From Thermomicrobiales bacterium (GTDB lineage: Bacteria; Chloroflexota; Chloroflexia; Thermomicrobiales; UBA6265), in NCBI GenBank assembly GCA_020853615.1, contig JADYYO010000016.1, positions 1 through 35,937 on the forward strand: 35,937 nt of DNA, given 5' to 3'. Each line of letters opens with the position of its first letter. The first letter of the stretch is position 1. The notes under the pieces are model-generated. The model was not told the origin of the DNA and did not search any database. It saw nothing but the letters and a program-made list of their open reading frames with translations. Below are positions 1 through 33,206 of the stretch, in pieces. The translations under genes were made by a program, and so were the position numbers.

Positions 1-297
1 CTCGAGCTGGGGCGCAACCTCTCCGGCGTCTCCGGCCGGCAGCGCGGAGCCCGCCGCGGCTGGCCCTGGCGGCGAAGCCGCGACCTCGACGCCACGCCGG
101 TCCCCGCGCCGCCGAACCCGGTCGAGACCGACGCCCTCCTCGCCGCCTGGGCGCCGGCTATCGAGGGCGCCGGGTCGGAGGAACCCTCGCCGCTCGATGC
201 GCTGGAGCGGGACCTGGAGCGCTCCTGGGAGGAGGAGCCGGAGCCGCGTGAGCGCGTCCGCGATCTCGTGACGACAGGCGGAGGCCGTAATGCCTGA
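1..297 (+). CDS. 3' end of an upstream CDS (5' truncated); unassigned, possibly part of the Tad cluster
   Basis: Frame 1 is open from base 1 to TGA at 295-297 (ends ...RDLVTTGGGRNA*). It overlaps the cpaF ATG at 290, which suggests translational coupling. Confidence 0.6.
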   Translation, partial: LELGRNLSGVSGRQRGARRGWPWRRSRDLDATPVPAPPNPVETDALLAAWAPAIEGAGSEEPSPLDALERDLERSWEEEPEPRERVRDLVTTGGGRNA

Positions 298-1903
298 TCG
301 GATGCCTGGCGGCGCGAAGCTGCAGCAGCCCTCCCTGCGCGACTACCTGCTGACGCGCAAGCCAGCCACCGCGCCGGCGAGCCACCCGGCCCCGGAGACG
401 TCCACGGGCGCCGCCGTGCTGGAGGCTCCTCCTCCTCACCGCCCTGAGCCGGAGATCGAGCCGCGCCCGCGCCCGGCCATGATGAACGGGCGGGCGGCGG
501 TCCCGGTCGAGCAGGTCGGGAGGGCGCTCAGCCGCGACGCGGAGCGGCTCCGCTACCGCCTCTACGACCGGCTGATGCAGGAGCTCGACGCGCAGCGGGT
601 CGCCGCGCAGACGAACGAGGCCGAGCACCGGCAGGCGATCGAGGACGCCATCGAGGAGCTGATCAAGCAGAGCGACGTCGAGCTGGCCCGGCCCGAGGTG
701 CTGACGCTGATGCGCGAGATCGCCGACGAGATCATCGCCTTCGGCCCGATCACGGCCCTGCTGCAGGACGACTCGATCTCCGAGGTGATGGTCAACGGCC
801 CGGAGGATGTCTTCTTCGAGCGGAAGGGGATGCTCTACCGCTCGGAGCGGACCTTCCGCGACGACGAGCACGTCAAGCGGATCATCGACCGCATCGTGCA
901 GCCGCTGGGGCGGCGCATCGACGAGTCGTCGCCGATGGTCGACACCCGCCTGCTGGATGGCTCGCGCGTCAACGCCATCATCCCGCCGCTGGCCGTCAAG
1001 GGGCCGTCGCTGACGATCCGCAAGTTCTCCAAGCACAAGCTGACCGACCGCGACCTGATCCGCTTCGGCGCGATGACCGAGGAGCTGGCGGAGTTCCTGC
1101 GCGGCTGCGTCGGCAGCAAGCTGAACATCCTCGTCTCGGGGGGGACCGGCTCGGGCAAGACGACCTTCCTCAACATGCTCGCCGCCTACATCCCGCCGCG
1201 CGAGCGGATCGTCACCATCGAGGACCCGGCCGAGCTGCAACTGTCGCAGGAGAACTGGGTCAGCCTCGAGACGCGCCCGGTCAACATCGAGGGGAAGGGG
1301 CTCGTCACCCAGCGCGATCTGGTCAAGAACTCGCTGCGCATGCGCCCCGACCGGGTGATCATCGGCGAGTGCCGCGGCAGCGAGGCGTTCGACATGCTGC
1401 AGGCGATGAACACCGGCCACGACGGCTCGCTGACGACGATCCACGCCAACACCCCGCGCGATGCGATCAGCCGCGTCGAGAACATGGTCCTGATGGCGAA
1501 CCTCGACCTGCCGGCGAAGGCGATTCGCGAGCAGATCGCCTCGGCGATCCACCTGGTGATCCAGTTGTCGCGCCTCAGCGATGGCTCGCGCCGCGTCACC
1601 CACGTCACCGAGATCGTCGGCATGGAGCAGGAGATCATCTCCATGCAGGAGATCTTCGTCTTCCGCCGCTACGGGCTGGACGAGAACGACAAGGTGATCG
1701 GGGCGCTGGAGCCGACCGGCATCCGCCCGATGTGCGCCGAGAAGCTGGAGCTCTTCGGCTACCCGATGGCGCCGGAGCTCTTCGCCACGCTCGAGAGCCG
1801 GTCGCTCCGCGCCAGCGGCCTCCGCCCCGACTCGGACGAGATGCTCAATGCGCTCGGCCAGTCGGCGCCGCCCGAGCTCTTCGCCACGCCCGATCGGCAC
1901 TGA
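290..1903 (+). CDS. cpaF: Tad/Flp pilus assembly secretion ATPase CpaF/TadA
   Basis: 537 aa. Walker A (SGGTGSGKTTFLNML), Asp box/Walker B region (RMRPDRVIIGECRGSEAFDMLQAMNTGHDGSLTTIHANTPRDAISR) and VMVNGPEDVFFERKG are typical of CpaF. Confidence 0.96.
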   Translation: MPDRMPGGAKLQQPSLRDYLLTRKPATAPASHPAPETSTGAAVLEAPPPHRPEPEIEPRPRPAMMNGRAAVPVEQVGRALSRDAERLRYRLYDRLMQELDAQRVAAQTNEAEHRQAIEDAIEELIKQSDVELARPEVLTLMREIADEIIAFGPITALLQDDSISEVMVNGPEDVFFERKGMLYRSERTFRDDEHVKRIIDRIVQPLGRRIDESSPMVDTRLLDGSRVNAIIPPLAVKGPSLTIRKFSKHKLTDRDLIRFGAMTEELAEFLRGCVGSKLNILVSGGTGSGKTTFLNMLAAYIPPRERIVTIEDPAELQLSQENWVSLETRPVNIEGKGLVTQRDLVKNSLRMRPDRVIIGECRGSEAFDMLQAMNTGHDGSLTTIHANTPRDAISRVENMVLMANLDLPAKAIREQIASAIHLVIQLSRLSDGSRRVTHVTEIVGMEQEIISMQEIFVFRRYGLDENDKVIGALEPTGIRPMCAEKLELFGYPMAPELFATLESRSLRASGLRPDSDEMLNALGQSAPPELFATPDRH

Positions 1904-1911
1904 GGCAGGTG

Positions 1912-2892
1912 ATGGTTCTGGATCGCCTCATGAGCCTCGATGCAGCCGTGGTCGCCACCGTCTTCTGGGCGGTCTTCGCCCTGACGGTCGCCCTCTTCCG
2001 GCTCGACGCCCGCAAGTCGACGCGGCTGCAGGCGCGGCTCGCCCGGCATGCCTACCGCGTCCAGAGCGCCGCGCCGCAGCGGATCAGCCGCGTGCGGGTG
2101 CTGGGCCGCTCGCCGGGGTGCCGGCTGCCCCTGCTCGACCGCTTCGCCTTCACGCGCAAGGCCGAGGTCGATCTGCGCTACGCCAACGTGCAGATGGGGG
2201 TTACCCGCTACCTCCTCATCCGCTCCGGGGCAGCGGCGGTCGCCTTCGCCGCCCTCCTGCTCGTCACCCGCTCGCCGCTTGGGGCGGCGGTCGCGGCGGT
2301 GGTCGGCTTCATGATCCCGCGGTTCGTCCTGCGCAAGAAGGGGGCGCGCCGCTCGGCCGCCTTCGAGAATCTGCTGGCGGAGACGCTCGATCTGCTGGTC
2401 GGCTCGCTGCGCGCCGGGCAGGGGCTGGTGCAGGCGGTCGAATCGATCTCGTACGAGCAGCCGGAGCCGATGCGCTCCGAGCTGCGCCGCATCGTCGGCC
2501 AGGTCAACATGGGGGTCAGCATCACCGACGCGATGGAGGGGCTGACGACCCGCTTCGACAGCCGCGATGTCGACCTGCTCGCCGCCGCGATCGCCATCAA
2601 CCGGGAGACGGGCGGCAACCTGACCGAGGTGCTGGAGCGGCTGGCCAGGACGGTCCGGCAGCGGCGCGAGATCCGGGCCGAGGCGCGCTCGCTGACGGCC
2701 GCGCCGCGCGCGACCGGCTACATCCTGGCGATCCTCCCCTTCGCCATCACCGGCTACACGGTCGCCATCAGCCCGATCTACCGGGAGCAACTCCTCTTCG
2801 CGCCGCTGGGGCGGCTCCTCCTCATCGGCTCGATCGTCTGGTCGCTGGTCGGCTTCGTCATCTCGCAGAAGCTGGCCAAGGCGGAGTACTAG
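1912..2892 (+). CDS. tadB: Type II secretion system F family protein TadB
   Basis: ATG at 1912. Contains LLAETLDLLVGSLRAGQGLVQAVESIS...VDLLAAAIAINRETGGNLTEVLERLARTVRQRREIRAEARSLTAAPRATGYIL, with TM segments at both ends. Confidence 0.92.
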   Translation: MVLDRLMSLDAAVVATVFWAVFALTVALFRLDARKSTRLQARLARHAYRVQSAAPQRISRVRVLGRSPGCRLPLLDRFAFTRKAEVDLRYANVQMGVTRYLLIRSGAAAVAFAALLLVTRSPLGAAVAAVVGFMIPRFVLRKKGARRSAAFENLLAETLDLLVGSLRAGQGLVQAVESISYEQPEPMRSELRRIVGQVNMGVSITDAMEGLTTRFDSRDVDLLAAAIAINRETGGNLTEVLERLARTVRQRREIRAEARSLTAAPRATGYILAILPFAITGYTVAISPIYREQLLFAPLGRLLLIGSIVWSLVGFVISQKLAKAEY

Positions 2893-2943
2893 CATGACGC
2901 AACGCGATCCGGCTCCCCGCCCGAGCGCCACGATGCAACGAGG

Positions 2944-2977
2944 GTGTCATCCTGAGCGCAGCGAAGGATCTCGGCTC
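2944..2977 (+). repeat. Dispersed REP-like half element (GTGTCATCCTGAGCGCAGCGAAGGATCTCGGCTC)
   Basis: Closely similar to arms of the inverted repeats at 27361-27446 and 28185-28267. Confidence 0.7.
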
Positions 2978-3000
2978 CCCAAAACCATGTCGCGCTCACT

Positions 3001-3054
3001 CTCACCCCCAACCGCCACCCAGCGGGTACCCGCTGGGTGGCGGTTGGGGGTGAG
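3001..3054. repeat. 54-bp perfect palindrome with no spacer
   Basis: ctcacccccaaccgccacccagcgggt / acccgctgggtggcggttgggggtgag. The left 27 nt are the exact reverse complement of the right 27 nt. Confidence 0.97.
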
Positions 3055-3147
3055 GACAGGCCGTGGCAACGCGGCGATGAATATCTGAATTCCGTATGAC
3101 ACCGCGTCCACCCGGGATGTCATCCACACGAGGGAGCGACAGCAACC

Positions 3148-4065
3148 ATGACCTTTTCCGCCCTTCTCGATCCGCTCCTGCTGGGGCCGGCGCTGGTCTT
3201 CGTGCTGGTCTTCACGCTGGCGGCCAGCGTGCCACAACGGCAGTCGCGGGTCGCGCTGCGCCTCGCACGGCACGGCGCCGGCATGCCGCTGGTGGTCCCG
3301 GCGCCCGGCCGCACCTCGCGCTGGAAGGCTCACCGGCGCCGGCCGGCGCTCCCCGACCGCCTGACCGGGCTCCTGCGCACCGAGAAGAGCACAGCGGAGG
3401 CGCGCGCGCTCCTCAACCGCGCCGGGTCGCCGATGTCGCTCGAGGCGTTCACCCGCGCGCGGCAGCTCTGCACCCTGGTGGCAGCGCCGACCTTCGCGGC
3501 GCTGGCCATTTTGGCCTTCGGCCTGACGCCGCTCGGCATCGCCGCCGCCCTGGTCGGGCTGCTCGCCGTGCCGCGCCTGCCGACGATCATGCTGAAGCGG
3601 ATCGCGAAGAAGCGCGCGCGCGAGATGGATCTCGTCATCTCCGACGTCCTCGATCTCCTGGTCGTCTGCGTCGAGGGGGGGCAGAGCCTCCCGGCGGCGC
3701 TGATGCAGGTCTCGCAGCGGATGGAGAATGTCGCCTCGGAGGAGTTCGGCCGCCTGCTGGCCGACATCAACAGCGGCATGAGCCGGCGCGACGCCTTCAC
3801 CGCCCTGGCCGACCGCTGTCAGTCGGACGCGCTCAGCGTCACCTGCACGACGGTCATCCACGCCGACAAGGTCGGCATGAGCCTGGCACAGACGCTGCGC
3901 ACGCTGAGCGACATGATGCGCACCCGCCGCCGCCAGGCGGCCGAGACGCGCGCCCGGCAGGCGCCGATCAAGATGATGCCGGTCCTCGTCGGCTTCATGC
4001 TGCCGGCGATGCTGGCGCTCCTGCTCGGGCCCGTGGCGCTCGAGGCGATGAAGGCCTTCCGCTGA
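3148..4065 (+). CDS. tadC: Type II secretion system F family protein TadC
   Basis: 305 aa. Contains AREMDLVISDVLDLLVVCVEGGQSLPAALMQVSQRM...SDALSVTCTTVIHADKVGMSLAQTLRTLSDMMRTRRRQAAETRARQAPIKMMPVLVGFMLPAMLALLLGP. Confidence 0.93.
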   Translation: MTFSALLDPLLLGPALVFVLVFTLAASVPQRQSRVALRLARHGAGMPLVVPAPGRTSRWKAHRRRPALPDRLTGLLRTEKSTAEARALLNRAGSPMSLEAFTRARQLCTLVAAPTFAALAILAFGLTPLGIAAALVGLLAVPRLPTIMLKRIAKKRAREMDLVISDVLDLLVVCVEGGQSLPAALMQVSQRMENVASEEFGRLLADINSGMSRRDAFTALADRCQSDALSVTCTTVIHADKVGMSLAQTLRTLSDMMRTRRRQAAETRARQAPIKMMPVLVGFMLPAMLALLLGPVALEAMKAFR

Positions 4066-4700
4066 ACCCTCTCCCTCTCGCTGCCGTCGCTGGCGCGCTC
4101 GTCGGGTCGGCGTGCTGGGCGGCCGCGAGCCGGCTCACCGCCGGCGCGCGCACCGGCTCCCGGGATGCCCGCGCGCTCCTCCCCGTCTCCGTGCTTGCGG
4201 GGGCGGTCCTGCTCATCGTTGCCGCGCTTCGTGGCGATGGTGATCCCGCGCGGGTGGCGATCGTCGCCATCCTGGCGGCGCCGATCCTGACCACCCTCCT
4301 GACCGATCTCCTGGCGCGGCTGGTTTACCCGGTGGTCGTGCTGCCGGGGCTGCTGGCCACGCTCGCCCTCGCGGCGATTGGCGCGCCGGTCCTCCCCGCG
4401 CTGCCGGCGGCGCTCGCCACCGGGGCCATCGCGGGAAGCATTGCCGTGCTCTTCATCGCCTTCGCGCGCTGGCGCTGGCCCGAGGCGGAGGAGACGCCGC
4501 TCGGCAGCGGGGACGCGCTGATCGCGGCGACAGCCGGGGCGATGCTCGGCCCCGGCCGGGCGCCGGCGGCCCTCTTCGCCGGCATGGCGCTCGGCGCGAT
4601 GGTCGCCCTCTTCCTCGTCACTCGCCAGGCCGATCCCGAGGACCCCATCCCCTACGGCGCGTTCCTCTGCGCGGCCGCACTCGCCGCTCTGGCGCTGTGA
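4062..4700 (+). CDS. Prepilin peptidase, A24/GXGD family (CpaA/TadV-like)
   Basis: Polytopic frame directly downstream of tadC. First Asp region TDLLARLVYPVVVLPGL; second signature PLGSGDALIAATAGAMLGP...IPYGAFLCAAAL. Start codon uncertain (CTG near 4062 or a later GTG). Confidence 0.72.
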   Translation: MNPLPLAAVAGALVGSACWAAASRLTAGARTGSRDARALLPVSVLAGAVLLIVAALRGDGDPARVAIVAILAAPILTTLLTDLLARLVYPVVVLPGLLATLALAAIGAPVLPALPAALATGAIAGSIAVLFIAFARWRWPEAEETPLGSGDALIAATAGAMLGPGRAPAALFAGMALGAMVALFLVTRQADPEDPIPYGAFLCAAALAALAL

Positions 4701-4921: not shown

Positions 4922-5103
4922 GGCTGAATGGCGTCCTTCGACCACGACCGCCCTGGCGCCGGGAAGGCTTGTCGATTCGCGTCGTCTGCATCCACAATGA
5001 AAGCCGCATGAAATTGACACCGGCCGGGCCGACCGCGCGGAACGTGGCATGCTTCGGGCAGATGGGAGACAGTAAGGCTGTTCGGAGGGCAAGGTCGGAA
5101 AAT

Positions 5104-5445
5104 ATGAAGGTCAATCTGGAACCACGACACGGAGGGGTCGCGGTCGCGCGGCTGACCGGCCGGCTCGATTTCGCCTCGGCGCAGACGGCGCGCGGTGAGT
5201 TCAGCGATGCGATCGCGGCCGGCTACCCGAAGCTCGTCATCGATCTCGGCAAGATCGAGTTCGTCGATAGCGCCGGCCTCGGCTCGCTCATCGGCGGCAT
5301 GCGCCGGGCCCGGCAGGCGGGGGGCGACCTGCGCATCGCCAACCCGAACGATCAGGTCAAGACTCTCCTCTCGCTCACCTCGCTGGATCAGGTGCTGAAG
5401 GTCCACCCCACAATCGAGGAGGCCGTCATTGGCTTCTCCCGGTAA
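5104..5445 (+). CDS. rsbV: STAS-domain anti-sigma factor antagonist (RsbV/SpoIIAA-like)
   Basis: 113 aa. LTGRLDFASAQTARGEF...KLVIDLGKIEFVDSAGLGSLIGGMRRARQAGGDLRIANPNDQVKTLLSLTSLDQVLKVH, with the DSAGLG phosphorylation motif. Confidence 0.93.
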   Translation: MKVNLEPRHGGVAVARLTGRLDFASAQTARGEFSDAIAAGYPKLVIDLGKIEFVDSAGLGSLIGGMRRARQAGGDLRIANPNDQVKTLLSLTSLDQVLKVHPTIEEAVIGFSR

Positions 5446-5890
5446 GGACGGCGGGCTCATTCTCGACCTGCGCGTGCCGGCCACGGCCGAGGGGATGGAC
5501 AGCGTGCACGCGGCGCTCGCCGGCTGCTGGCCGACGTTGGGCCAACCGCACCTGGCGGAGAGCCGCTGGTGCGACGAGTTCAATCTCGCAGTCGCCGAGG
5601 TCGCGGCCAACATCATCCAGCACGCCCACGACCCGGAGGCGCCGTTCGTCTCCTTCGACCTCTCGCTGACGCGCTACCCGGATCGCCTGCGGGCGCGCTT
5701 CGTCGACCCGGGCGTCGTGGTCTCCACACCCACTGACCAGACCATGCCGCCGGTCGACGTCCCCTATGACGATCTGGAGGAGCGAGGGCGGGGCCTGGCA
5801 ATCGTGCAGATGACGACCGATCGCTTCGAATACCTGCGCACGGCGCAGGGCGAGAACGTCTGGGTCATCGAGAAGACCTTTCCGGTGTAG
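5429..5890 (+). CDS. rsbW: RsbW-like anti-sigma factor / serine kinase (HATPase_c)
   Basis: TTG start preceded by GAGGAGG and overlapping the STAS gene end. Contains DEFNLAVAEVAANIIQHAHDPEA...LRARFVDPGVVV...EERGRGLAIVQMTTDRFEYLRTAQGENVWVIEKTF. Confidence 0.9.
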   Translation: MASPGKDGGLILDLRVPATAEGMDSVHAALAGCWPTLGQPHLAESRWCDEFNLAVAEVAANIIQHAHDPEAPFVSFDLSLTRYPDRLRARFVDPGVVVSTPTDQTMPPVDVPYDDLEERGRGLAIVQMTTDRFEYLRTAQGENVWVIEKTFPV

Positions 5891-8147
5891 CGGGCGCGGC
5901 TGCCAGCGCGGCCATCGCCTCCTCGCGGCGGATCACGACCAGGGTCAGATCGTCCGGGCGCGCCCCGGCCTCCGCGGCGAGGGCGACGAGGCGCTCGAGC
6001 TTGGCCGCCGCGTTGTGCGCTCCGTCGAGCCGCGCGGCGACGCCGGCTGGATCGAGCTGGAGGTCGGGGCGCGCGTCGGGCAGCCCGTCGCTGTAAAGGA
6101 CCAGGGTGTCGCCCGGCTGCACCATGGCGACCCCGGCCCGATACGCGGTCTCCTCCTGCACGCCGAGGGGCAGCCCCCGCTGCCGCAGCGGCTCCACCTC
6201 CCCGTCCCGCCGCTGGATGAGCGCCATCCCATGCCCCGCATCGACGTAGGTGAGCCTCCCCGTAGCCGGGTCGAGGCTGGCGTGGAAGAGGGTGATGAAG
6301 CTGTCCGACTGGACGAGGTCGGGGTAGAGGACGCGATTGACCGTGTCGATGGCTCCGGGTAGCGGCGCTTCCGCCAGTGAGCGCAACGCGGCGCGCGCCG
6401 TCGCCGTCAGGAGCGAGGCGGGGAGCCCTTTCCCCATGACGTCGCCAAGCGAGACGCGGACCCGGCCATCTGGCGTGCTGACCCAGTCGAAGAAGTCGCC
6501 GCCGACCTGGCGCGCGGGGAGGCAAATGCCGGCAAAGTCGTAGCCGGGGACATCGGGCGCCGCCTGCGGCAGGAGCTGCGCCTGCACCTTGGCGGCTCGC
6601 TGAATCTCCGCCTCGAGCTCGGCGTGCAGCCGGTCGCGCTCCTCTTGCAGGAGGATCTGCTCGGTGATGTCCCGGTTGCTGCCGACGAGGCCGATGATCT
6701 GGCCGGCAGCATCGCGCAGCGGCGCCTTGGTGGCCAGCACCCAGCGCTGGTTGCCCATGACGCTCTGCCGCTCCGGCTTGTTCAGCATCGGCTCCCCGGT
6801 TGCGAAGAGCCGCTGCTCATCGGCCAGATACTCCCGCGCCAGCGACTCCGGGAAGAAGTCGGCGTCCGACTTGCCGATGGCCTGCTCGGGGTCGGCGATG
6901 CCAAGCGTCTGCGCCGTGGCCTGGTTGAGCCGGATGAAGCGCGATGCGGTGTCCTTGACGTAGACAGGGTCGGGGAGATGCGCCATCACCGCCTTCAGCA
7001 GGTCCCGCTCCCGGGCCAATGCCTCCTCGGCGGCGCGGCTGGCCGTGACATCGGTCTGGATGCCGACAAAGTGGGTCAGGACGCCCGCCTCGTCGCGCAC
7101 CGCCGCGACGCGCAGCTCGACCCAGTAGGGCGTGCCGTCCTTCCGATAGTTGAGCAGGGTTTCGGTGACGTCGCGCCCGGCCGAAATCCCCTCCACCAGC
7201 CGCTGGAGCGGCGCCGGGTCAGTGCCGGGACCGCGCAGGAACCCGAATTCGCGGCCGATCACCTCCTCGCGGGTGTAGCCGGTCATCGCCTCGAAGGCCG
7301 GGTTGACGTCGACGATCCGGCTGTACGGCAAGGTCGTGTCGGTGATGACGACGCCGTTCGGGGCAGCGGAGACCGCCCGGTTGCGCAGCCGCAGCGCCTG
7401 CTCCGCATCCCGCAGCGCCGTGATGTCGTAGGCGATGGAGGAGACGGCGACGACGCGGCCGCTCGTGTCGAGCACCGGCGAGACCGAGACGGAGGTGACG
7501 ATGCGCCGGCCATCCCGCGTCATCCGCTCGACTTCGACATTCCGCAGGCTCTCGCCGCGCCTGACCCGCTCGAGCGCCGGGCTGATGGTGTCCTTGCCCC
7601 CGGGCGGCACGAGCATCCTGATCGACTCGCCGATCGCCTCGGCCGTCGTGTAGCCGTAGAGTCGCTCGGCAGCGGGGTTCCAACTGACGATCACCCCGTC
7701 GAGGTCGGAGCCAATGATGGCGGCCGGGCTCGAGGTGACGATGCTGGCCAGGCGCGCCCACGCCGCCTCGGCGCCGCTCCCTTCGTGCAGACTGCGCAGG
7801 AAGACGACAAAGCGGGGGCCGGCATCGGCCGTTTCCGGCAGGAGCGACGAGGCGATGTGGACTGGAATGCGGATATCGTCCTCCCGCCGGACTTCGCCCG
7901 TCACCCACGTCTGGTCGATGCGCGGTGGCCACGACTCGAAGATCTCCGCGGCCGGGCGCTGGAGAAGCTGGTCACGCGAGGAGCCGAGCAGGCCGAGCGC
8001 CTGGGCGTTGGCATCGAGGCAGCGCCCGGTCTCGTCGACGACGAGCACGGCGTCCGGCGTAGAGGCGAGCAGCATCCGATAGGCGGCGGCGCCGTTCACT
8101 GGGGCAGACGCTTCTGCCAACCGGGCCGGGGCGTCGATCTCATGCAT
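5865..8147 (-). CDS. Multi-PAS (PAS-PAS-LOV-like-PAS) PP2C/SpoIIE-type serine phosphatase, RsbU-like
   Basis: 760 aa. Several PAS/PAC repeats, then KVQAQLLPQAAPDVPGYDFAGICLPARQVGGDFFDWVSTPDGRVRVSLGDVMGKGLPASLLTATARAALRSLAE...DTLVLYSDGLPDARPD. Its 3' end overlaps that of rsbW by 26 bp (convergent). Confidence 0.94.
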   Translation of the reverse strand: MHEIDAPARLAEASAPVNGAAAYRMLLASTPDAVLVVDETGRCLDANAQALGLLGSSRDQLLQRPAAEIFESWPPRIDQTWVTGEVRREDDIRIPVHIASSLLPETADAGPRFVVFLRSLHEGSGAEAAWARLASIVTSSPAAIIGSDLDGVIVSWNPAAERLYGYTTAEAIGESIRMLVPPGGKDTISPALERVRRGESLRNVEVERMTRDGRRIVTSVSVSPVLDTSGRVVAVSSIAYDITALRDAEQALRLRNRAVSAAPNGVVITDTTLPYSRIVDVNPAFEAMTGYTREEVIGREFGFLRGPGTDPAPLQRLVEGISAGRDVTETLLNYRKDGTPYWVELRVAAVRDEAGVLTHFVGIQTDVTASRAAEEALARERDLLKAVMAHLPDPVYVKDTASRFIRLNQATAQTLGIADPEQAIGKSDADFFPESLAREYLADEQRLFATGEPMLNKPERQSVMGNQRWVLATKAPLRDAAGQIIGLVGSNRDITEQILLQEERDRLHAELEAEIQRAAKVQAQLLPQAAPDVPGYDFAGICLPARQVGGDFFDWVSTPDGRVRVSLGDVMGKGLPASLLTATARAALRSLAEAPLPGAIDTVNRVLYPDLVQSDSFITLFHASLDPATGRLTYVDAGHGMALIQRRDGEVEPLRQRGLPLGVQEETAYRAGVAMVQPGDTLVLYSDGLPDARPDLQLDPAGVAARLDGAHNAAAKLERLVALAAEAGARPDDLTLVVIRREEAMAALAAAPATPERSSR

Positions 8148-8159
8148 CCGCCGGCCGCC

Positions 8160-8669
8160 TCAGGACCAACGTGACGGCAACGACGAGCAGGCGAACCCGT
8201 CACCGGATGGGTCGAGGTTGAAGGGGTCGCCCGGCGCCTGGTCGTAGACCGTCTGCGCGTCCTCCTGATACTCGAAATCGATGCAGTCGATGTCCTCGAC
8301 CCCCTCGTCTTCGGGCGCTGGCGTCATGGCGCCCACCCGTGGCGGCCCATCTCCCGGATCGAGCTCCCTCTCGACCGAAGCCTTCTCGGCCCGCGCTTTC
8401 GCGGCCGGGGCGACGATCGGCGTCTCGCAGGCGATGCCGTCGAGGTCGACATCAAGCCCATGGGGATCGCTCGGATCGGCATCGAGCGCGGCCTGCGCCT
8501 CGGCCTGGTCGGCGAAATCACTGCAGGTCAGGTCGCGCGGCGCCTCTGCAGCCTGCGCGAGGGACGCGGAGCCGGGGCGCGGCTGCTCGCCCGAGGGGAT
8601 ATCCATTGTCCCTTCACTCGCCAGGAGGCCGAGGAGCAACACCGCGATAACGAACCCGTGCATCGGCAC
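8160..8669 (-). CDS. Secreted protein with two Excalibur-like calcium-binding domains
   Basis: Signal peptide (MPMHGFVIAVLLLGLLASEG). DLTCSDFADQAEAQAALDADPSDPHGLDVDLDGIACE and DIDCIDFEYQEDAQTVYDQAPGDPFNLDPSGDGFACSS match the Excalibur DxDxDGxxCE pattern. Confidence 0.85.
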   Translation of the reverse strand: MPMHGFVIAVLLLGLLASEGTMDIPSGEQPRPGSASLAQAAEAPRDLTCSDFADQAEAQAALDADPSDPHGLDVDLDGIACETPIVAPAAKARAEKASVERELDPGDGPPRVGAMTPAPEDEGVEDIDCIDFEYQEDAQTVYDQAPGDPFNLDPSGDGFACSSLPSRWS

Positions 8670-11507: not shown

Positions 11508-14500
11508 CTACCCGTTCGCGGCCGTTGCGGAGCGTCGCCGCACCCCGCGTCGGCGCGCGCCGGCATAGCGGGCGGCCGGCAGGGAGAGGGTGAAGGTGGA
11601 GCCGACCTCGGGCATCGACTCGACCGTGATCGTGCCGCCCATCTGCTCGGCGAGCCGGCGGGCGATCGCCAGCCCCAGCCCGGCCCCGCCGTAGCGGCGG
11701 GTGAGGTTGCCGTCGACCTGGCGGAACTCCTCGAAGATGTGCGGCAGCGCCTCCGCGGTGATGCCGATCCCCGTATCCCTCACCGCCACCTGCACAATGC
11801 CGTCGACCGCGTCGGCGGCGATGCTCACCGCGCCCCGCTCGGTGAACTTCACGGCATTCCCCGCCAGATTGAGCAGGATCTGCCGCACCCGGTCCGGGTC
11901 GCCGAGCGCCGGGGCCAGCGCGGCCGGGATATCAATCTCGAGGCGCAAACCCTTCACGGCCGCCTGCGGCGCGATGTCCTGCCGCACCTGCTCCACGATC
12001 TCGCTCACGTCGACCGGCTCGGCCGCCAGCTCCAGCCGTCCCGCCTCCATGCGCGACAGGTCGAGCATCTGCTCGATCAGCCCCATCATGCGGGTCGCCC
12101 CCTGCCGGATGGAGGTCAGGTCCTCCCGCTGCTCCGTCGTCAGCGACGCCGGCGGCCCGAGGAGGAGGAGATCGGCATAGCCGAGGACCGCCTGCAGTGG
12201 CGTGCGCAGCTCGTGGCTCATCATCGAGAGGAAGAGGCTCTTGGCGCGGGTCGCCGCTTGCGCCGCCTCCAGCGCCCGCCGCAGCGACTGCTCGAGCCGC
12301 TTCCGATCGGTCACGTCGCGCAGCGCCGAGATCATTGCCTGCCGCTCGCCCTCGATCTCGATGAAGTCGGAGCGGACCTCGACCTCCCGCTCGGAGCCAT
12401 CCGCTCGCCGCACGCGCAAATCGTAGGTGCGCCGTGAATCGGGCCCGGCGAAGCTGGCGCGGTAGGTCGTCACGGCCGCCTCCCGCTCCCCCTCCGGCAT
12501 GACGACCGCGAAGCTCTGCCCGACCAGCGCCGCCGGGGCGATCCCGTAGAGCTCACCGTAGGCGGGGTTGGCCGCCAGGATGCCCCCCTCCGGGTCGGTG
12601 AGGACCATCGCGTCCTGGGTGCTCTCCCAGACGCCTCGCAAGCGCGCCTCGCTCTCGAGCAGCGTTGCCAGCGCCTCCACCCGCTCGGTGACGTCGTTCT
12701 GGATGCCGACGAAGTGCGTGAGCGCCCCCGCCTCGTCGCGCACGCCCGCGATATGCAGCTCATTCCAGAAGGAGGAGCCGTCCTTGCGGTAATTGAGGAT
12801 CGTCGCGGTAACGTCGTGGCCCCGGGCGATGGCGTCGCGGATGCGTAACTTCACCGCCCAGTCGGTGAAGGGACCTTGCAGGAAGCGGCAATTGCGACCG
12901 ATCACCTCCTCCCGCCCGTAACCGGACATCGCCTCAAAGGCGGGGTTGACATCGATGATCGGGTTGTCGGGCCGGCGCGCATCGGTGATGACAATGCCGT
13001 TGGTGGCGGCGGCGATCGCCCGGTCGCGGATGCGCAGCGCGCGCTCCGCCTGCCGTAGCGCCGTCATATCGCGCGCGATCGAGGCGAGAGCGACGACGTC
13101 CCCGGTGGTGTTGCGGATCGGCGAGAGGGAGAGGGAGACCTCGACGCGGCGGCCGTCGCGCGTCAGCAACTCCGTCTCGACCCCCTCGATGCTCTCTCCG
13201 GCATGGACGCGATCGGCCATGTGGGAGAAGTCGTCGAAGCGCTCTGGCGGGCGCAGCATCGTCACCGGCTGCCCGATCGCCTCCTCGGCGGGATAGCCGT
13301 AGAGCTTCTCGGCGCCCCGGTTCCAACTGGCGATCGTCCAGTCAAGAGTGCAGCTGATGATGGCGTCTTCGGCCGCCTCGACGATCGCGGCGAGGCGCGC
13401 CCGCTCCTCCTCGGCCCGCACCCGCTCGCTGATATCGAACAGGACCCCGTGGAAGCCGACGATCGCGCCGGCCTCGTCGCGAATCGGCACTGACTCGTCG
13501 TGCACCCAGATGTAGCTGCCGTCCTTGCGCCGGTAGCGGTATTCGATGCGCAGCGGCCGGCCCTCGATCAGGGCCAGCCCATCCTCGTCAGCGACCCGCG
13601 CCCGGTCGTCCGGGTGCACCTTCGCCAGCCAGTGCGTCTCGCGCGCCAGCAGCTCCTTGGGTCGGTAGCCGGTCAACGGCTCGAGGTAGGGGCTGAAGTA
13701 GAGGGGCGTCTGCAACTGGTCATTCGCCTGCACGTAGACCAGCGCGGGCAGATGCTGCACCAGATCGCGGTACTTCGCCTCGGAGACGCGCAGGTCGCGC
13801 GCCAGCCGCTTCCGCTCGGTCACGTCCTGGAAGACGACGGAGAGGCCGTTCGGCGAGGGGTAGGCGCGCCCCTCGAACCAGGTGTCGAGCGGCTCGTAGA
13901 AGACCTCGGCCGACGCCGCGACCCCCTCGGCCATCGCCCGGTGGTAGATGTCATAGATGACCGTCTCGACGGTGGGGGGGAACGCCTCCCAGATCGAGAC
14001 GCCGAGCAGATCCTCACGCGACCGGCCGAGCATCCGCTCGGCGGCATCGTTGACATAGGTGAAGCGCCACGCCCGGTCGAGCGCATAGAAGCCGTCGGTG
14101 ATCCGCTCCAGCAGCTCCTGGCTCCGCTCGTGCGCTGCGGCCAGCTCGGCCTCTGCCAGTTTGCGGTCGGTGATATCGCGGGCGATCGCCGAGCTGGCGA
14201 CGATCTCGCCCGCCTCATCGCGAACAGGGAAGACGGAGAGGGAGATATCGAGCCGCTGCCCGTCCCGGACCTGGCCCGAAAGCTCCAGCTTCTCGACGCG
14301 CTCGCCGGCGCGCACCCGCTCCAGCAGCGTATCGAGCAGCGGCGCGAGATCCGGCGGCGTGAGGAGCGCCGCCGGCTGCCCGACCGCCTCGGTGGCGGTG
14401 TAGCCGAAGAGCCGCTCGGCGGCGGGGTTCCAGTCGGTGATGACCCCAGCGAGCGTCGTGCCGACGATCGCATCGGGGCTCGAGGTAACGATGGCGGCCA

Positions 14501-14552
14501 GCCGGGCGCGGGTCAGGTCGCCCTGCCCGGCATCACCCCGGTTGTGGGGCAC
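11508..14552 (-). CDS. Multi-PAS sensor histidine kinase containing a canonical LOV domain
   Basis: 1014 aa. Several PAS/PAC units including IIDVNPAFEAMSGYGREEVIGRNCRFLQGPFTD...ILNYRKDGSSFWNELHIAGVRDEAGALTHFVGIQNDVTER (LOV). HisKA (FLSMMSHELRTPLQAVLGYADLL) and HATPase_c (NLAGNAVKFTERGAVSI...GAGLGLAIARRLAEQMGG). No TM segment and no receiver domain. Confidence 0.95.
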   Translation of the reverse strand: MPHNRGDAGQGDLTRARLAAIVTSSPDAIVGTTLAGVITDWNPAAERLFGYTATEAVGQPAALLTPPDLAPLLDTLLERVRAGERVEKLELSGQVRDGQRLDISLSVFPVRDEAGEIVASSAIARDITDRKLAEAELAAAHERSQELLERITDGFYALDRAWRFTYVNDAAERMLGRSREDLLGVSIWEAFPPTVETVIYDIYHRAMAEGVAASAEVFYEPLDTWFEGRAYPSPNGLSVVFQDVTERKRLARDLRVSEAKYRDLVQHLPALVYVQANDQLQTPLYFSPYLEPLTGYRPKELLARETHWLAKVHPDDRARVADEDGLALIEGRPLRIEYRYRRKDGSYIWVHDESVPIRDEAGAIVGFHGVLFDISERVRAEEERARLAAIVEAAEDAIISCTLDWTIASWNRGAEKLYGYPAEEAIGQPVTMLRPPERFDDFSHMADRVHAGESIEGVETELLTRDGRRVEVSLSLSPIRNTTGDVVALASIARDMTALRQAERALRIRDRAIAAATNGIVITDARRPDNPIIDVNPAFEAMSGYGREEVIGRNCRFLQGPFTDWAVKLRIRDAIARGHDVTATILNYRKDGSSFWNELHIAGVRDEAGALTHFVGIQNDVTERVEALATLLESEARLRGVWESTQDAMVLTDPEGGILAANPAYGELYGIAPAALVGQSFAVVMPEGEREAAVTTYRASFAGPDSRRTYDLRVRRADGSEREVEVRSDFIEIEGERQAMISALRDVTDRKRLEQSLRRALEAAQAATRAKSLFLSMMSHELRTPLQAVLGYADLLLLGPPASLTTEQREDLTSIRQGATRMMGLIEQMLDLSRMEAGRLELAAEPVDVSEIVEQVRQDIAPQAAVKGLRLEIDIPAALAPALGDPDRVRQILLNLAGNAVKFTERGAVSIAADAVDGIVQVAVRDTGIGITAEALPHIFEEFRQVDGNLTRRYGGAGLGLAIARRLAEQMGGTITVESMPEVGSTFTLSLPAARYAGARRRGVRRRSATAANG

Positions 14553-18556: not shown

Positions 18557-19618
18557 CTACCAGCGCGGCTGCCTGCTGCGCACGAGGAGGAGCGCAAGGA
18601 GGAGGGCGATCAGGCCGAGCAGCCCGGCGATGAGGTAGAGCATCCAGGGCTGGATCGGCGCGGCGGCGGGCAGCGCGGCAGGTGCAGCAACTCGCGACTC
18701 CTCGCCCGGCGCGGGCTGCGCGACCGGCGCGTCGTCGCTGACGGTGAGCGTGCCGCTGTAGCGGGCGATCTTGTCGTTGGCGTAGCGCAGCTCGACCTCG
18801 ACGCCATAGTCGCCGCCCTGCGGGACGCCCGGCCAGGCGACGGGGTAGGTGATGCCGGAGCCGGTGATGAAGGTGCCGAGCTCGATCGGCTCGCTCAGGA
18901 TGGGGGTCGCCTCGGCGTTGCTCAATGTCACCGACCCTTTCGGCCAGAGGAAGGTGTCGCCGTCGTTGCGGATGGCGATGCCGAGCTTCGTCCCGCTCGG
19001 CTGCTCGAGCGCGCTCGCCCCGGTGATCGTCAGCGAGGGGGTCCATGCGCCCGGCACATCGACCTCGACCCCGATGACGTAGCGCGGCTGCACGATGATG
19101 GAGGCGCCGGCGCTCGCGTCGCCAGCCGTTGGCGTCCCCGCCCGCTCGACCGGAATAAAGGCCGCGATGCCAGCGAGATACTGGCCGGGCGTCGTCTCCT
19201 TCGGCACCTGCACCGCAAAGTGGACGAGCGCCTCTTCACCCGGCGCGAGGGAGATCCGCGATTCGTCCAGGCTGAGCCACGCGCCGGCGGCAGCCGGTTC
19301 GATATCCGAGGGGCTGTACGCGGTTCCGCCGAGTTGCGCCGTGTCGGCATCGACCGTGGCAAATTCGACCGTCACCGGTTCGTCGTCCGGATTCCGCAGC
19401 CGGATGCTTCCGGTCGCCTCGGCCCCGGCGGCAAGCTCGTAGACGAAATAGCCCTTCGCGGTGATTCCGGGATCGGCCTGGGGCTCCGGAGCGATCTCCA
19501 GCCCGCTCGCCACCGGCGTACTGGTCGGAGTGGCGACGGCGGTTTCCTGCGCGGGGATGCGAGCCGGCGTGGCGAAGAGGGCAAAGAGCGCGAGAGCGAG
19601 GGGAACAAGGCGACGCAT
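18557..19618 (-). CDS. DUF916-like (WxL-associated) surface protein with C-terminal TM anchor
   Basis: Signal peptide MRRLVPLALALFALFATPARIPAQ. GYFVYELAAGAEATGSIRLRNPDDEPVTVEFATVDADTAQ...WLSLDESRISLAPGEEALVHFAVQVPKETTPGQYLAGIAAFIPVE resembles DUF916. C-terminal MLYLIAGLLGLIALLLALLLVRSRQPRW. Confidence 0.72.
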   Translation of the reverse strand: MRRLVPLALALFALFATPARIPAQETAVATPTSTPVASGLEIAPEPQADPGITAKGYFVYELAAGAEATGSIRLRNPDDEPVTVEFATVDADTAQLGGTAYSPSDIEPAAAGAWLSLDESRISLAPGEEALVHFAVQVPKETTPGQYLAGIAAFIPVERAGTPTAGDASAGASIIVQPRYVIGVEVDVPGAWTPSLTITGASALEQPSGTKLGIAIRNDGDTFLWPKGSVTLSNAEATPILSEPIELGTFITGSGITYPVAWPGVPQGGDYGVEVELRYANDKIARYSGTLTVSDDAPVAQPAPGEESRVAAPAALPAAAPIQPWMLYLIAGLLGLIALLLALLLVRSRQPRW

Positions 19619-19694
19619 GAACTGCTCCAGGAGGGGATGGGAGGGACCGCTGGCCCGCGGCCCCTCCACGACTCGGCGACGCGGGCCGAGCCTG

Positions 19695-20288
19695 CTATTG
19701 ACCTGCTCCGGTGGGGCCAACGGCCAATGTCAGCGAGATGACGCTGGTGTACGTATCTGCCTTGACATCGCCCGGGAGGCTCAAGGTGAGCCCAGCCGGA
19801 TCGAAGTCGTACGTACCCATGCCTGTATCCGCCGCGGCACTGGCGATCTGGATAGGGCCATCGTCGATGACGCTCGACCCCGAGGGAAGGATGGAGGGTG
19901 CGGGCGACGCGACCCCGGCCTTCGCCTTCACGGTCGGCTTGGCTAATTGCAGCGAACCAGTCGCCAGCGTATTCCCAGTGTCGACGTTCTTGAACTGGCT
20001 CGCCTCGATGGTCACCTGCCAGCCCGCTCCGGTCCCGGTCAGGTCGGAGACGCTGAACCCGCCCAACTCGGCGGCCGTGTTTTGAGCAAGACCAGTGACG
20101 TTCACATCATCGAAGTTCGTTGTGCCGGTGGGATCGGTGATCGTCCGGAATCCCGGCTTGACCGTGGCGGTCGTGGTGGCCGATGCGCTCAGGTCATCGG
20201 CCGCGACTGCCGGGGTCACCAGCAGCAGGCTCAGCGCCGCCGCGCCAACCATTCCCAGCAGTGGGTGGCGCTTCCTTCGCTCGAACAT
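19695..20288 (-). CDS. WxL-domain-like secreted surface protein
   Basis: Signal peptide MFERRKRHPLLGMVGAAALSLLLVTPAVAADD. C-terminal MGTYDFDPAGLTLSLPGDVKADTYTSVISLTLAVGPTGAGQ matches the WxL-domain end in layout, but has no Trp at the signature position. Confidence 0.68.
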   Translation of the reverse strand: MFERRKRHPLLGMVGAAALSLLLVTPAVAADDLSASATTTATVKPGFRTITDPTGTTNFDDVNVTGLAQNTAAELGGFSVSDLTGTGAGWQVTIEASQFKNVDTGNTLATGSLQLAKPTVKAKAGVASPAPSILPSGSSVIDDGPIQIASAAADTGMGTYDFDPAGLTLSLPGDVKADTYTSVISLTLAVGPTGAGQ

Positions 20289-20391
20289 GAGAGTTCCTTT
20301 CGCGCGCCCCTTCAGCGCGCTTGGCGTTCCCAGCTCCGGCCGGGCCGCCCGGCCGGGATCCTGCACGGATGCCTGGGAAATGAATGGACGC

Positions 20392-20410
20392 TTCCCGGAA
20401 GTTCCAGGAA
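20392..20410. promoter_or_regulatory. Candidate operator: two TTCCNGGAA palindromes with 10-bp period
   Basis: TTCCCGGAA-G-TTCCAGGAA, about 104 bp upstream of the WxL-like ATG, in the divergent intergenic region. Confidence 0.4.
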
Positions 20411-20593
20411 TCGTGAAGATTCTGCCTCTCCGCGCGCCGCAGGGGCGTGGCAGCGCGGATCGCCCGCGTTGCAAGTTCATGCCAATCGGCGAGGAACCGC
20501 GCTGATCTCGCGCGTAGGGAAGCCAGCGGGCACGCCGGGCGTAGCGCGATTTATCAAATCGTCACCCAAAAGTCCCGTTCTGATAAGCATTGA

Positions 20594-28287: not shown

Positions 28288-30417
28288 CTAGCGCCGCAGG
28301 AGGAGGAGCGAGCGCGCTGGCATGTCGAAGGGCTCGCCGGCGGTGATGATCCGCGCGCCGACCGGGTCGACCGTGCCGGCGGCCGTGTCGACGACGACCT
28401 GCCACTCGTCGTTCCCCTCCGGCGGCAGGCAGAACTGCACCGGCTCGTAGTGGCCGTTGAGGAGGAGGAAGAGATCGTCGTCGACAACGCGGTTCCCCTC
28501 GGCGTCGACCTCGAGCAGCGCCTTGCCGCCGAGGCGCATGGCGATGGCGCGCGCCCATCCCTCCTCCCACTCCTGGTCGGTCATCGGCTGGCCGTCGGGG
28601 CGGAACCAGGCGAGGTCCTCCACCTCGGAGCCGCGAATCTTTCGCCCCTGGAAGAAGCGGGGCCGACCGAGGCTCGGGTGGCGCTCGCGGACAGCGATCA
28701 GCGCGCGCATGAACTCGAGGAAGGCGCGCTTCCGGTCGTCGAGGGTCCAGTCGACCCAACTGATCTCGTTGTCCTGCGCGTAGACGTTGTTGTTCCCGCA
28801 TTGTGTGCGGCTCAGCTCGTCGCCGTGCGAGATCATCGGCACCCCCTGTGAGAGGAGGAGGGTTGCCATCAGGTTCCGCTTCGTCTGCTCGCGGGCGGCG
28901 ACGATCGCCGGGTCGTTGGTCGGCCCCTCGACGCCATGGTTCCACGACAGGTTGTGGTCGATGCCGTCGCGGTTCCCCTCGCCGTTCGCCTCGTTGTGCT
29001 TCTCGTTGTAGCTGACCAGATCCTGCAGGGTAAAGCCGTCGTGGGCGGTGACGAAGTTGATGCTGGCGTAGGGGCGGCGGCCGTCCCCCTGGTAGAGGTC
29101 GGAGGAGCCAGTGAGACGGTAGGCGAGCTCGGAGATGGCGACGTCGCCTCCCTTCCAGTAGTCGCGCACGCTGTCGCGGAACTTGTCGTTCCACTCGCTC
29201 CAGAGAGCGGGGAAGTTGCCGACCTGGTACCCCCCCTCGCCGATGTCCCACGGCTCGCCGATCAGCTTGACGCGGGAGAGGACCGGGTCCTGGTGGATGA
29301 CGTCGAAGAAGGAGCCGAGGCGGTCGACGTCGTGGAACTCGCGCGCCAGCGCCGAGGCGAGGTCGAAGCGGAAGCCGTCGACGTGCATCTCCTCCACCCA
29401 GTAGCGGAGCGAGTCCATGATCAACTGCAGCACCTGCGGGTGGACGGCGTTGAGGGTATTGCCGGTGCCGGTGTAGTCCATGTAGTAGCGGGGGTTGTCG
29501 GGGACGAGCCGATAGTAGCTGGCGTTGTCGATGCCGCGGAAGGAGAGGGTCGGCCCGAGCTGGTTCCCCTCGGCGGTGTGGTTGTAGACGACGTCGAGGA
29601 TCACCTCGATGCCGGCGGCGTGCAGCGCCTTCACCATCTGCTTGAACTCGGTCACCTGCCCGCCCTGGTCGCCGCTGCTGGAGTAGCGCGCCTCCGGAGC
29701 GAAGTAGCCGATCGTGTTGTAGCCCCAGTAGTTGGTCAGCCCCTGTTCCAGCAGGTGCCGGTCGTCGAGGAAGGCGTGCACCGGCAGCAGCTCGACGGCG
29801 GTGACGCCCAGCTCCTTGAGGTAGGCGATCACCGGCGGCGCGGCCAGGCCGGCGTAGGTGCCCCGCAGGTCGTCGGGCAGGTCCGGGTGGCGCGCGGTAA
29901 AGCCTTTTACGTGCATTTCGTAAATGACGGAGTCGTGCAGCGGGGTGTCGGGCCGGCGGTCGTCGCCCCAGTCGAACGTGCCGTCGATGACGATCGCCTT
30001 CGGCACGCCGCGGGCGTCGTCTTTCCTCCCCTGGGTCAGGTCGTCCTTGCCGAGACGATAGCCGAAGACGGGCGCGTTCCAGTCGACGCCGCCGGAGATG
30101 GCGCGGGCGTAGGGATCGATGAGGAGCTTGGCCGCGTTGAAGCGGTGCCCCGCCTTCGGCTCCCACGGCCCATGGACGCGATAGCCGTATCGCTGGCCGG
30201 GGCCAACCCCGGGCAGGTAGCCGTGCCAGATGTGGGCGGTCATCTCGTGCAGCGGCACGCAGCCGGTCTGCTTCCCCTTCTCGTCGAAGAGGCAGAGCTC
30301 CACGTCCGTCGCATTCTCGCTGAAGAGGGCGAAGTTCGTTCCCTCCGCGTCGGGCGTCGCGCCGAGCGGGAATCGCGTCCCGGGCAGGACGCGATGCTCC
30401 GTGGTCACGCCACGCAT
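28288..30417 (-). CDS. glgX: Glycogen debranching enzyme GlgX
   Basis: 709 aa. [125 protein letters not shown]. Confidence 0.97.
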
Positions 30418-30626
30418 TCATCTTCCTCCAGAACCTCACGAATCATGCGGGAAGCCACCCTACCACGCGCGCGGGGAAGCGCACATCTCGTGCCGGGCCA
30501 GTGCCGGTGCCGTGGAGGGTAGCCCGAGCTTCCCGATCGGGCGCGGTGGCACCTGTCGTGCGATGACCGAAGGCGAGGCGGAGAACCGCCGACACACGAT
30601 TGAGTGCATTCAGGAGTACCGTTTCG

Positions 30627-31142
30627 ATGGCGATGACGACGCCGCGGGATCTCTTCATCCACGACCTGTCGGACGCGATGAGCGCCGAGCAGCAGATCCT
30701 CAAGATGCTGCCGGAGCTGGCGAAGGAGTCGCAGATCCCGGAGATTCGGCAGGCCTATCAGCAGCACGAGCAGGAGACGCAGCAGCACGTGCAGCGCCTG
30801 CAGCAGGTCTTCCAGCTCCTCGGCAAGCAGCCGGAGAAGACGACCTGCTTCGCGATCCAGGGGATCGCCGAGGAGCACCGGGCGCTGCACAAGGAGCAGC
30901 CCGCGCCGCCGGTGCTGGAGATGGCCAACCTCGGTGGCGCCGACCAGACCGAGCACCTCGAGATGGCAATGTACACCTCGCTGGTGCAGATGGCGAAGGA
31001 TCTCGGCCAGCAGCAGACGGCGCAACTGCTGCAGCAGAACCTCGATCAGGAGAAGGCGATGGCCAAGCGGATCGAGGGTTTCTCGAAGTCGCTCGGCAAG
31101 CAGATGGCGAGCAGCGCGAGCGGCGCCCACGCGGCCCGCTAG
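30627..31142 (+). CDS. DUF892 (YciE/YciF-like) ferritin-like protein
   Basis: 171 aa from ATG at 30627. TPRDLFIHDLSDAMSAEQQILKMLPELAKESQIPEIRQAYQQHEQETQQHVQRLQQVFQLLGKQPEKTTCFAIQGIAEEH. Confidence 0.92.
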   Translation: MAMTTPRDLFIHDLSDAMSAEQQILKMLPELAKESQIPEIRQAYQQHEQETQQHVQRLQQVFQLLGKQPEKTTCFAIQGIAEEHRALHKEQPAPPVLEMANLGGADQTEHLEMAMYTSLVQMAKDLGQQQTAQLLQQNLDQEKAMAKRIEGFSKSLGKQMASSASGAHAAR

Positions 31143-31253
31143 GCAGTCGAGACAGGCGCGCCGCGCTCGATAATCAGGCCCCGGTGCAGATTGCCCGCTT
31201 CCCGGTCCTCGAGCCGGGCGGCGGGCAGTCGCTTCGTGTAACGAGGACGAGGA

Positions 31254-33206
31254 ATGGCGCAGGAACGCGCGGCAGAGCAGAGCGAGAGGCCAGGGCGGCG
31301 CCGCGCGGTCGGCGTCGAGGTGCTGCCAGACGGGGCGGTCCACGCCCGCGTCTGGGCGCCTTTTGCTGGAGAGCGAGGCATCGCGGTCGCGCTCGAGGGC
31401 GGCCCCGGCACGGAAGATGGCGAGCCGGTCATCGTGCCGCTGCAGCCGGAGCCGCGCGGCTACTTCTCTGGTTTCCTGCCGAGCGCCGGCCCCGGCACGC
31501 ACTACCGCTTCCGTCTCGGCGGCGAGGATCTCGCCGCCGACCCGGCCTCGCGTTTCCAACCGGAGGGGGTGCACGGGCCCTCGCAGGTCGTCGATCTCGC
31601 GGCCTTCCCCTGGGAGATCGATCAGTGGCAGCTTCCCCCCTTCCCCGAGTGGATGATCTACGAGCTGCACGTCGGCGCCTTCACTCCGGAGGGGACCTTC
31701 GAGGCGATCATCCCGCGCCTGCCGTACCTGAAAGAGCTCGGCGTGACCGTCATCGAGCTGATGCCGGTCGCCCAGTTCCCGGGGCAGCGGAACTGGGGCT
31801 ACGACGGCGTCTTCCCCTATGCCGCGCAGAACAGTTACGGCGGTCCCGTAGGGCTGCAGCGGCTGGTCGACGCCGCGCACCGGGAGGAGATCGGCATCCT
31901 CCTCGACGTCGTCTACAACCACCTCGGCCCGGAAGGGAACGTGCTTCACCGCTTCGGCCCCTACTTCACCGACCGCTACTGCACCCCCTGGGGCGACGCC
32001 CTCAACTACGACGGGCCGGACAGCGACGAGGTGCGCGCTTTCTTTATCGATAGCGCCCTGATGTGGCTGGAGGAGTTCCGCGTCGACGGCTTCCGGCTCG
32101 ACGCCGTCCACCAGATCTACGACCCGCACGCGCAACCCTTCCTGGCCGAGCTAGCCGACGCGGTCCACGAGCGGGCGGGGGAGCTGGGGCGGCCGGCGGT
32201 ACTGATTGCCGAGAGCGACCTCAACGACCCGAAGCTGATCCTGCCCCGCTCGATCGGCGGCTACGAGCTCGACGCGCAGTGGGCCGACGACTTCTGTCAC
32301 GCGCTGGAGGCGCAGCTCATCGGTGAATCGAGCACCTACGCCCCCGACTTCGGCGCGTTCGCGGCGCTCGGCAAGGCGATGCGCGAGGCCTTCGTCTTCA
32401 CCGGCCAGTACAGCCAGATGCGCCGCCGCCACTACGGCCGGCCCTCGGAGCCGGCGACGAGCGCACAGTTCGTCGTCTTCCTGCAGAACCACGATCAGGT
32501 CGGCAACCGGCCCGGCGGGCTGCGGCTGGGGCGCCACATCATCTTCGCCCAGCGCAAGCTCGGCGCGGCGACCGTCCTCCTCTCCCCGTATGTGCCCCTC
32601 CTCTTCATGGGGGAGGAGTACGGGGAGCCGAACCCCTTCCTCTACGTCACTGACCACAGCGACCAGGCCTTGATCGAGGGGGTGCGCGCCGGCCGGCTCG
32701 CCGATTTCGCGCATTGGGATTGGAGCGCCGAGGACGCCGCGCCCGACCCCCAGGATCTCACCAGCCTCGAGCGCTCGCGGCTGCAGCTCGACCTGCACAA
32801 GGACCAGACGGAATCGGCGGCGGAGTATCGCGCCCTCTACCAGTGGTACCGGACGCTGCTGGCGCTGCGGCGCGCCCTGCCCGCGCTGACCGACCCGGAG
32901 GCGACGCGCGAGGTGATCACCTGGGACGACGAGCGGGTGCTCCTCATGCAGAGCCTGAGCCACGACCGCGCGAGCGAGACGCTGGTGATCCTCGCCTTCG
33001 ACGCTGGAGAGCAAACCGTGACGCTGCCGGCGTTGCAGGGGGAGTGGATCAAGCGCCTCGACGCCGGCGACGCCCACTTCCTCGGCGATCGCCCCGGCGG
33101 CCCCGATCGGCTCGATGCCGACGCCCCGGCCGCGCTCACCCTGGCGTCGTATGCAGCGCTCCTGTACGAGCGCGTCGATTCGGGATGCCCGTCGGCCTCC
33201 TCGTGA
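31254..33206 (+). CDS. treZ: Malto-oligosyltrehalose trehalohydrolase TreZ
   Basis: 650 aa. GVEVLPDGAVHARVWAPFA, VDGFRLDAVHQIYD, VLIAESDLNDPKLI, QFVVFLQNHDQVGNRPGGLRLG, LLSPYVPLLFMGEEYGEPNPFLYVTDHSD. Confidence 0.94.
   Translation: MAQERAAEQSERPGRRRAVGVEVLPDGAVHARVWAPFAGERGIAVALEGGPGTEDGEPVIVPLQPEPRGYFSGFLPSAGPGTHYRFRLGGEDLAADPASRFQPEGVHGPSQVVDLAAFPWEIDQWQLPPFPEWMIYELHVGAFTPEGTFEAIIPRLPYLKELGVTVIELMPVAQFPGQRNWGYDGVFPYAAQNSYGGPVGLQRLVDAAHREEIGILLDVVYNHLGPEGNVLHRFGPYFTDRYCTPWGDALNYDGPDSDEVRAFFIDSALMWLEEFRVDGFRLDAVHQIYDPHAQPFLAELADAVHERAGELGRPAVLIAESDLNDPKLILPRSIGGYELDAQWADDFCHALEAQLIGESSTYAPDFGAFAALGKAMREAFVFTGQYSQMRRRHYGRPSEPATSAQFVVFLQNHDQVGNRPGGLRLGRHIIFAQRKLGAATVLLSPYVPLLFMGEEYGEPNPFLYVTDHSDQALIEGVRAGRLADFAHWDWSAEDAAPDPQDLTSLERSRLQLDLHKDQTESAAEYRALYQWYRTLLALRRALPALTDPEATREVITWDDERVLLMQSLSHDRASETLVILAFDAGEQTVTLPALQGEWIKRLDAGDAHFLGDRPGGPDRLDADAPAALTLASYAALLYERVDSGCPSASS

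Follow-up and report, generated by a model that had tools for sequence, protein, structure and literature searches.

Cysteine-less LOV domains and LOV-coupled phosphatases have each been described. Yee et al. (2015; PMC4682037) listed about 70 natural Cys-less LOV-like domains and designated as LOV* those in which the photoactive cysteine is absent but at least nine other conserved LOV residues are present; a Cys-less LOV can signal through the neutral semiquinone. An example are the halobacterial BAT-LOV* domains, which have the LOV fold and sequence, carry an unreactive residue at the adduct cysteine and are part of a multi-domain regulator (PMC4682037). LOV-SpoIIE phosphatases, named in PMC4844311, unite a LOV-family unit and a SpoIIE/PP2C domain in one protein. 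The RsbU- and RsbP-type phosphatases share with the protein described here intact SpoIIE motifs and adjacent RsbV- and RsbW-like genes. RsbU itself is not known to carry a chain of PAS or LOV domains. A literature search for papers that treat a LOV domain together with SpoIIE, a phosphatase and RsbU found none. What is new in the present locus is the combination of a phenylalanine at the cysteine site, a decayed pocket and a nearby relative that has kept the cysteine.

The window (the whole stretch of DNA analyzed, 35,937 nt) is the entire contig JADYYO010000016.1 of a Thermomicrobiales bacterium genome (GCA_020853615.1), which comprises 413 contigs and is about 86% complete. According to its translation and Pfam, the phosphatase has the order PAS1 - PAS2 - LOV-like - PAS4 - SpoIIE/PP2C; Pfam finds four PAS stretches, the third being the LOV-like unit, and one SpoIIE/PP2C domain. 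The features of the gene and its upstream neighbor are as follows:

8160-8669, minus strand: Excalibur-domain gene, upstream of the phosphatase gene
5865-8147, minus strand: phosphatase gene, 760 aa
7416-7757, minus strand: PAS2, about residues 131-244
7044-7388, minus strand: LOV-derived PAS unit, about residues 254-368, ending in a D-V-T signal motif
7230-7256, minus strand: GREFGFLRG, residues 298-306, in place of GRNCRFLQG
7245-7247, minus strand: Phe301 at the position of the LOV photoactive cysteine, codon TTC
7119-7121, minus strand: Val343, where the flavin-ring asparagine (YtvA N104) is expected
6657-6980, minus strand: PAS4, residues 390-497
6483-6503, minus strand: GGDFFDW motif, residues 549-555, directly ahead of the Pfam SpoIIE/PP2C domain
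5925-6473, minus strand: SpoIIE/PP2C domain (Pfam residues 559-741) with the motifs GDVMGKG, YSDGLPD and PDDLTLV

The SpoIIE/PP2C domain carries the conserved acidic motifs, which were all located, and matches PF07228 with an E-value of 3e-40. All sampled actinobacterial LOV-SpoIIE proteins (L035, L037, L045, L057, and L070) keep the cysteine, whereas in the phosphatase described here it is lost and the LOV unit stands third among four PAS units. An earlier note on this DNA placed the unit at 7072-7420. These limits are shifted by about 30 bases: they take in the end of PAS2 and drop most of the last strand, THFVGIQTDVT, which lies at 7044-7076.

The phenylalanine that the earlier note had read at the cysteine position is indeed encoded there, flanked by the codons of E300 (7248-7250) and G302 (7242-7244), and the nonapeptide around it contains four substitutions (N300E, C301F, R302G, and Q305R). 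Besides C62 of YtvA, nine residues have been named as conserved (G59, N61, R63, F64, L65, Q66, N94, N104, and Q123) (Yee et al., 2015; PMC4682037). At these positions the LOV-like unit has G, E, G, F, L, R, N, V, and Q, respectively, and thus keeps five of nine, having lost N61 (to E), R63 (to G), Q66 (to R), and N104 (to V) in addition to the cysteine. Most sampled Cys-bearing LOV domains score 8-9 on the same scale and four of them 6-7, while non-LOV PAS units score 2-6. Within the pocket set (N61, R63, Q66, N94, N104, and Q123) only the equivalents of N94 and Q123 (N333 and Q364) remain; the loss of all flavin-contact residues, which the earlier note had set against its own reading, is therefore not what is found. 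The equivalent of R467 of AsLOV2 is Val318, a position at which one LOV of the family has a serine.

The cysteine is present in all ten other LOV domains found in the family. Eight of the 23 columns that are invariant in these ten are altered in the LOV-like unit (P277R, N300E, C301F, R302G, Q305R, F341Y, N343V, and R370S), compared to 0-3 altered columns for each of the ten in a leave-one-out control. To judge from known LOV structures, seven of the eight probably lie at or beside the flavin pocket. Among the invariant columns, the enrichment of changes at the ten core sites is not significant on its own (Fisher p = 0.18); more weight falls on the excess of changes relative to the leave-one-out controls. 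The equivalents of R302 and Q305 presumably touch the ribityl-phosphate end of the flavin and that of N343 its ring, and their loss together with the cysteine argues against ordinary flavin binding. A sequencing error as the source of Phe301 was ruled out, since five of the ten defining positions differ. The DVT motif that closes LOV and PAS units is kept and is followed by a charged helix, so that passage of a signal through the unit stays plausible.

We therefore consider it the best explanation, with a probability of about 0.6, that this is an RsbU-type phosphatase with four PAS units, the third being a former LOV of histidine-kinase ancestry, no longer capable of canonical flavin photochemistry and now serving as a structural or otherwise sensing PAS. 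To judge from its residues, the unit is most likely photochemically dead, probably flavin-poor or flavin-free, and kept as a structural or alternative-ligand PAS. It would form no flavin-cysteine adduct and have at best a weak affinity for flavin; its present role may be in structure or dimerization and in passing on a signal, or in sensing something besides blue light, and the other PAS units in the chain would set the activity of the phosphatase. Features that speak against this explanation are the retained equivalents of Q123 and N94, which contact the flavin ring, and Arg305, which could supply a positive charge for a phosphate. The open reading frame and the confident fold of the AlphaFold2 model (44 related sequences, pLDDT 94) would fit flavin loss and a changed use alike.

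The earlier note had left two alternatives, a redox- or residual-light-sensing LOV or a domain that has lost flavin. The loss of the N61, R63, Q66, and N104 equivalents besides the cysteine favors the latter and weakens the former. If the unit were a working Cys-less LOV with bound flavin, it would signal through photoreduction or the redox state of the cell, like the Cys-less variants of Vivid and YF1, and the phosphatase would sense redox or, weakly, light; semiquinone signaling, the natural Cys-less domains already listed, the LOV fold, the DVT exit motif and the two retained pocket residues are all in line with this reading. We nevertheless regard it as unlikely, as only five of the nine named residues are present in the unit, short of the at least nine demanded for LOV* (PMC4682037), and as phenylalanine is bulkier than alanine or proline and would probably clash with the flavin. 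The listed LOV* domains, in contrast, keep nearly all other LOV-conserved residues, and the LOV-like unit further differs from them by its phenylalanine at the cysteine site and its PP2C phosphatase output.

Slightly less probable is a repurposing of the pocket for a different small ligand, which would make the unit a new type of LOV-derived PAS sensor. Y341, V343, and R277 are residues often found in non-LOV PAS domains of a class that has proline at the cysteine site (e.g., L085, L097, and L098), as if the pocket had been remodeled and not merely eroded. However, no orthologue with the same pocket was found, so selection for a new ligand is not apparent, nor does the genome context suggest a ligand. 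In particular, no Cys-less copy was found at the search threshold in any other genome of the family, and no second copy with the residues of the LOV-like unit was found in the family genomes or in 158 genomes of the class, so that the altered pocket is represented by a single copy. A search of these 158 genomes with the LOV unit and the start of PAS4 returned only already known loci. The DNA pattern for G-R-x-F-x-F-L-x-G-P has five matches in them (the LOV-like unit and four others), a number similar to that of a reversed-pattern control.

Two cyanobacterial LOV units (L028:4001-4372 and L039:4001-4372) have serine (GKNSRFLQG) or isoleucine (GKNIRFLQG) at the cysteine position with the other nine residues intact. 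Judged by these residues, both are candidates for true Cys-less LOV* domains.

The nearest relatives of the LOV-like unit are the LOV domains of two histidine kinases (64-65% identity), one of them in the window and the other in G001, a genome of the same genus. Both differ from it in having kept the photochemical residues and in their kinase output. The features of the kinase in the window are:

11508-14552, minus strand: six-PAS histidine kinase (P0002), in which a later PAS unit is a LOV with all defining residues
12681-13031, minus strand: LOV domain of this kinase, reading GRNCRFLQG, 64% identical to the Cys-less unit

The kinase gene lies about 3.4 kb from the phosphatase gene. At the threshold used, a search of the genome found only two LOV units, both in the window; a third match was weak and corresponds to an ordinary PAS unit of the kinase. 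The LOV of G001 sits in a kinase and reads GRNCRFLQC. The corresponding phosphatase of G001 contains no LOV: PAS2 and PAS4 are adjacent, a further PAS unit follows PAS4, and the gene is preceded by an Excalibur-type gene as in the window. PAS4 is 70% identical between both phosphatases and, like PAS2, has its best match there. Residues 125-371 of the phosphatase match the kinase at 57%, but a joint transfer of PAS2 and LOV from the kinase was rejected, as PAS2 has its best match in PAS2 of the G001 phosphatase (61%) and is more distant from the kinase PAS (54%), so that it was the LOV unit alone that was gained in the phosphatase described here or lost in G001. A LOV of the histidine-kinase lineage may thus have been inserted between PAS2 and PAS4 (unless it was lost in G001), after which the pocket would have been lost in the copy described here.

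With a Cys-bearing and a Cys-less relative in one window, the locus offers a natural comparison for the residues that separate a flavin-binding LOV from a flavin-free PAS. Under the preferred explanation, it would show a light sensor that was copied into a new signaling protein, lost its sense and kept its place in the signal chain. It is a long shot that the photoactive kinase LOV and the photo-dead phosphatase LOV form a natural pair in which the dead one either pairs directly with the live one or responds to a new ligand, one partner-switching pathway thereby integrating light and a second signal.

The unit is LOV-derived, as shown by its profile matches, predicted fold and position in the tree; with the translation, these agree with the earlier note that the third sensor unit is a LOV derivative without the cysteine. 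Profile searches, a check proposed there, do not place it with generic PAS domains. Profiles of LOV-bearing families match the LOV-like unit at 1e-29 to 1e-32, and its best solved relatives are LOV crystal structures, with matches at 1e-32. In NCBIfam the YtvA-family LOV model reaches 112.5 bits versus 71.3 for the generic S-box model; the kinase LOV of the same window reaches 142-143 bits with LOV models versus 67 with the generic S-box model. Superposition of the predicted unit and 9vf7_C, a LOV structure from Meiothermus ruber, gives a TM score of 0.96 and an rmsd of 0.8. A tree of 51 domains separates LOV from the GxxP PAS class (support 99/97) and puts the LOV-like unit with the LOVs, next to the kinase LOVs from the same genome and from G001 (95/72); its branch has about twice the length of theirs. 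Without the pocket columns, it falls in the starred set of ten rows, of which the other nine are all LOVs of the family. That it never was a LOV but a generic GxxP-class PAS, LOV-like by convergence, is very improbable: V343, Y341, and R277 are common to that class and an AU test over all columns did not reject the grouping (p = 0.32), but the grouping was rejected without the pocket columns (p = 0.026) and identity to five GxxP members compared is 40-48%, so that a generic PAS origin was ruled out on the pocket-free tree and identity.

The PAS domains with proline at or near the cysteine position (L071, L081, L085, L088, L089, L097, L098, and L100), often with a YWVEL-like strand, stand apart from LOV in the tree. 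BAT-LOV* likewise has proline at the cysteine site, and some of these PAS domains may thus bind flavin.

Directly beside the end of the phosphatase gene, and convergent with it, are two genes that point to its role:

5104-5445, plus strand: RsbV-like STAS anti-sigma-factor antagonist, phosphoacceptor serine in DSAGLG (AGC, 5269-5271)
5429-5890, plus strand: RsbW-like HATPase_c_2 serine-kinase/anti-sigma gene, its 3' end overlapping that of the phosphatase gene by 26 bp

The RsbV-like protein scores above the cut-offs of PF01740 and TIGR00377, and its reading frame stays open up to an upstream TTG at 4969. The RsbW-like protein scores above the cut-off of PF13581 and below those of the RsbW equivalog models, and is thus assigned at the family level only. 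The STAS match (5125-5424, plus strand) is one of only two in the genome, and no HATPase_c_2 match in the genome is better than the one at 5567-5866 (plus strand). At the threshold used, a related RsbV was found in three other genomes of the family (G010, G019, and G031). In all three, it is on one contig with a PP2C phosphatase that has a receiver-type input, at a distance of at most about 3.5 kb, and an RsbW-like gene is next. This recurrent linkage shows a conserved pairing in which the input domains change. No RsbV above threshold was found in G001, where the phosphatase is located at a contig end. In the genome, which is 86% complete, no match to a SigB/F/G-type sigma factor was found above the cut-off.

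As judged from the adjacent genes and the recurrent linkage, a partner-switching role of the phosphatase is well supported, which strengthens the RsbU-like assignment of the earlier note. The presumably active phosphatase would dephosphorylate the RsbV-like protein of the convergent neighboring gene; in its dephosphorylated form, this protein would then bind the RsbW-like kinase and free the target of that kinase.

In G031 and G010 (L134:3212-5323 and L135:2397-4496), a glycosyltransferase gene, cellulose-synthase-like by eye, lies between the phosphatase and RsbV genes, a position that hints at control of exopolysaccharide by the partner switch. In the window, the partner-switching genes adjoin a Tad/type IV pilus-like cluster (290-4700, plus strand) of T2SSE ATPase, T2SSF and type IV leader peptidase-like genes. 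Further away, the window encodes WxL-domain and WxL-interacting surface proteins (18557-20480, minus strand), which are mainly known from Firmicutes, and isoamylase-type and alpha-amylase-type genes (28288-33206), probably of glycogen or trehalose metabolism.
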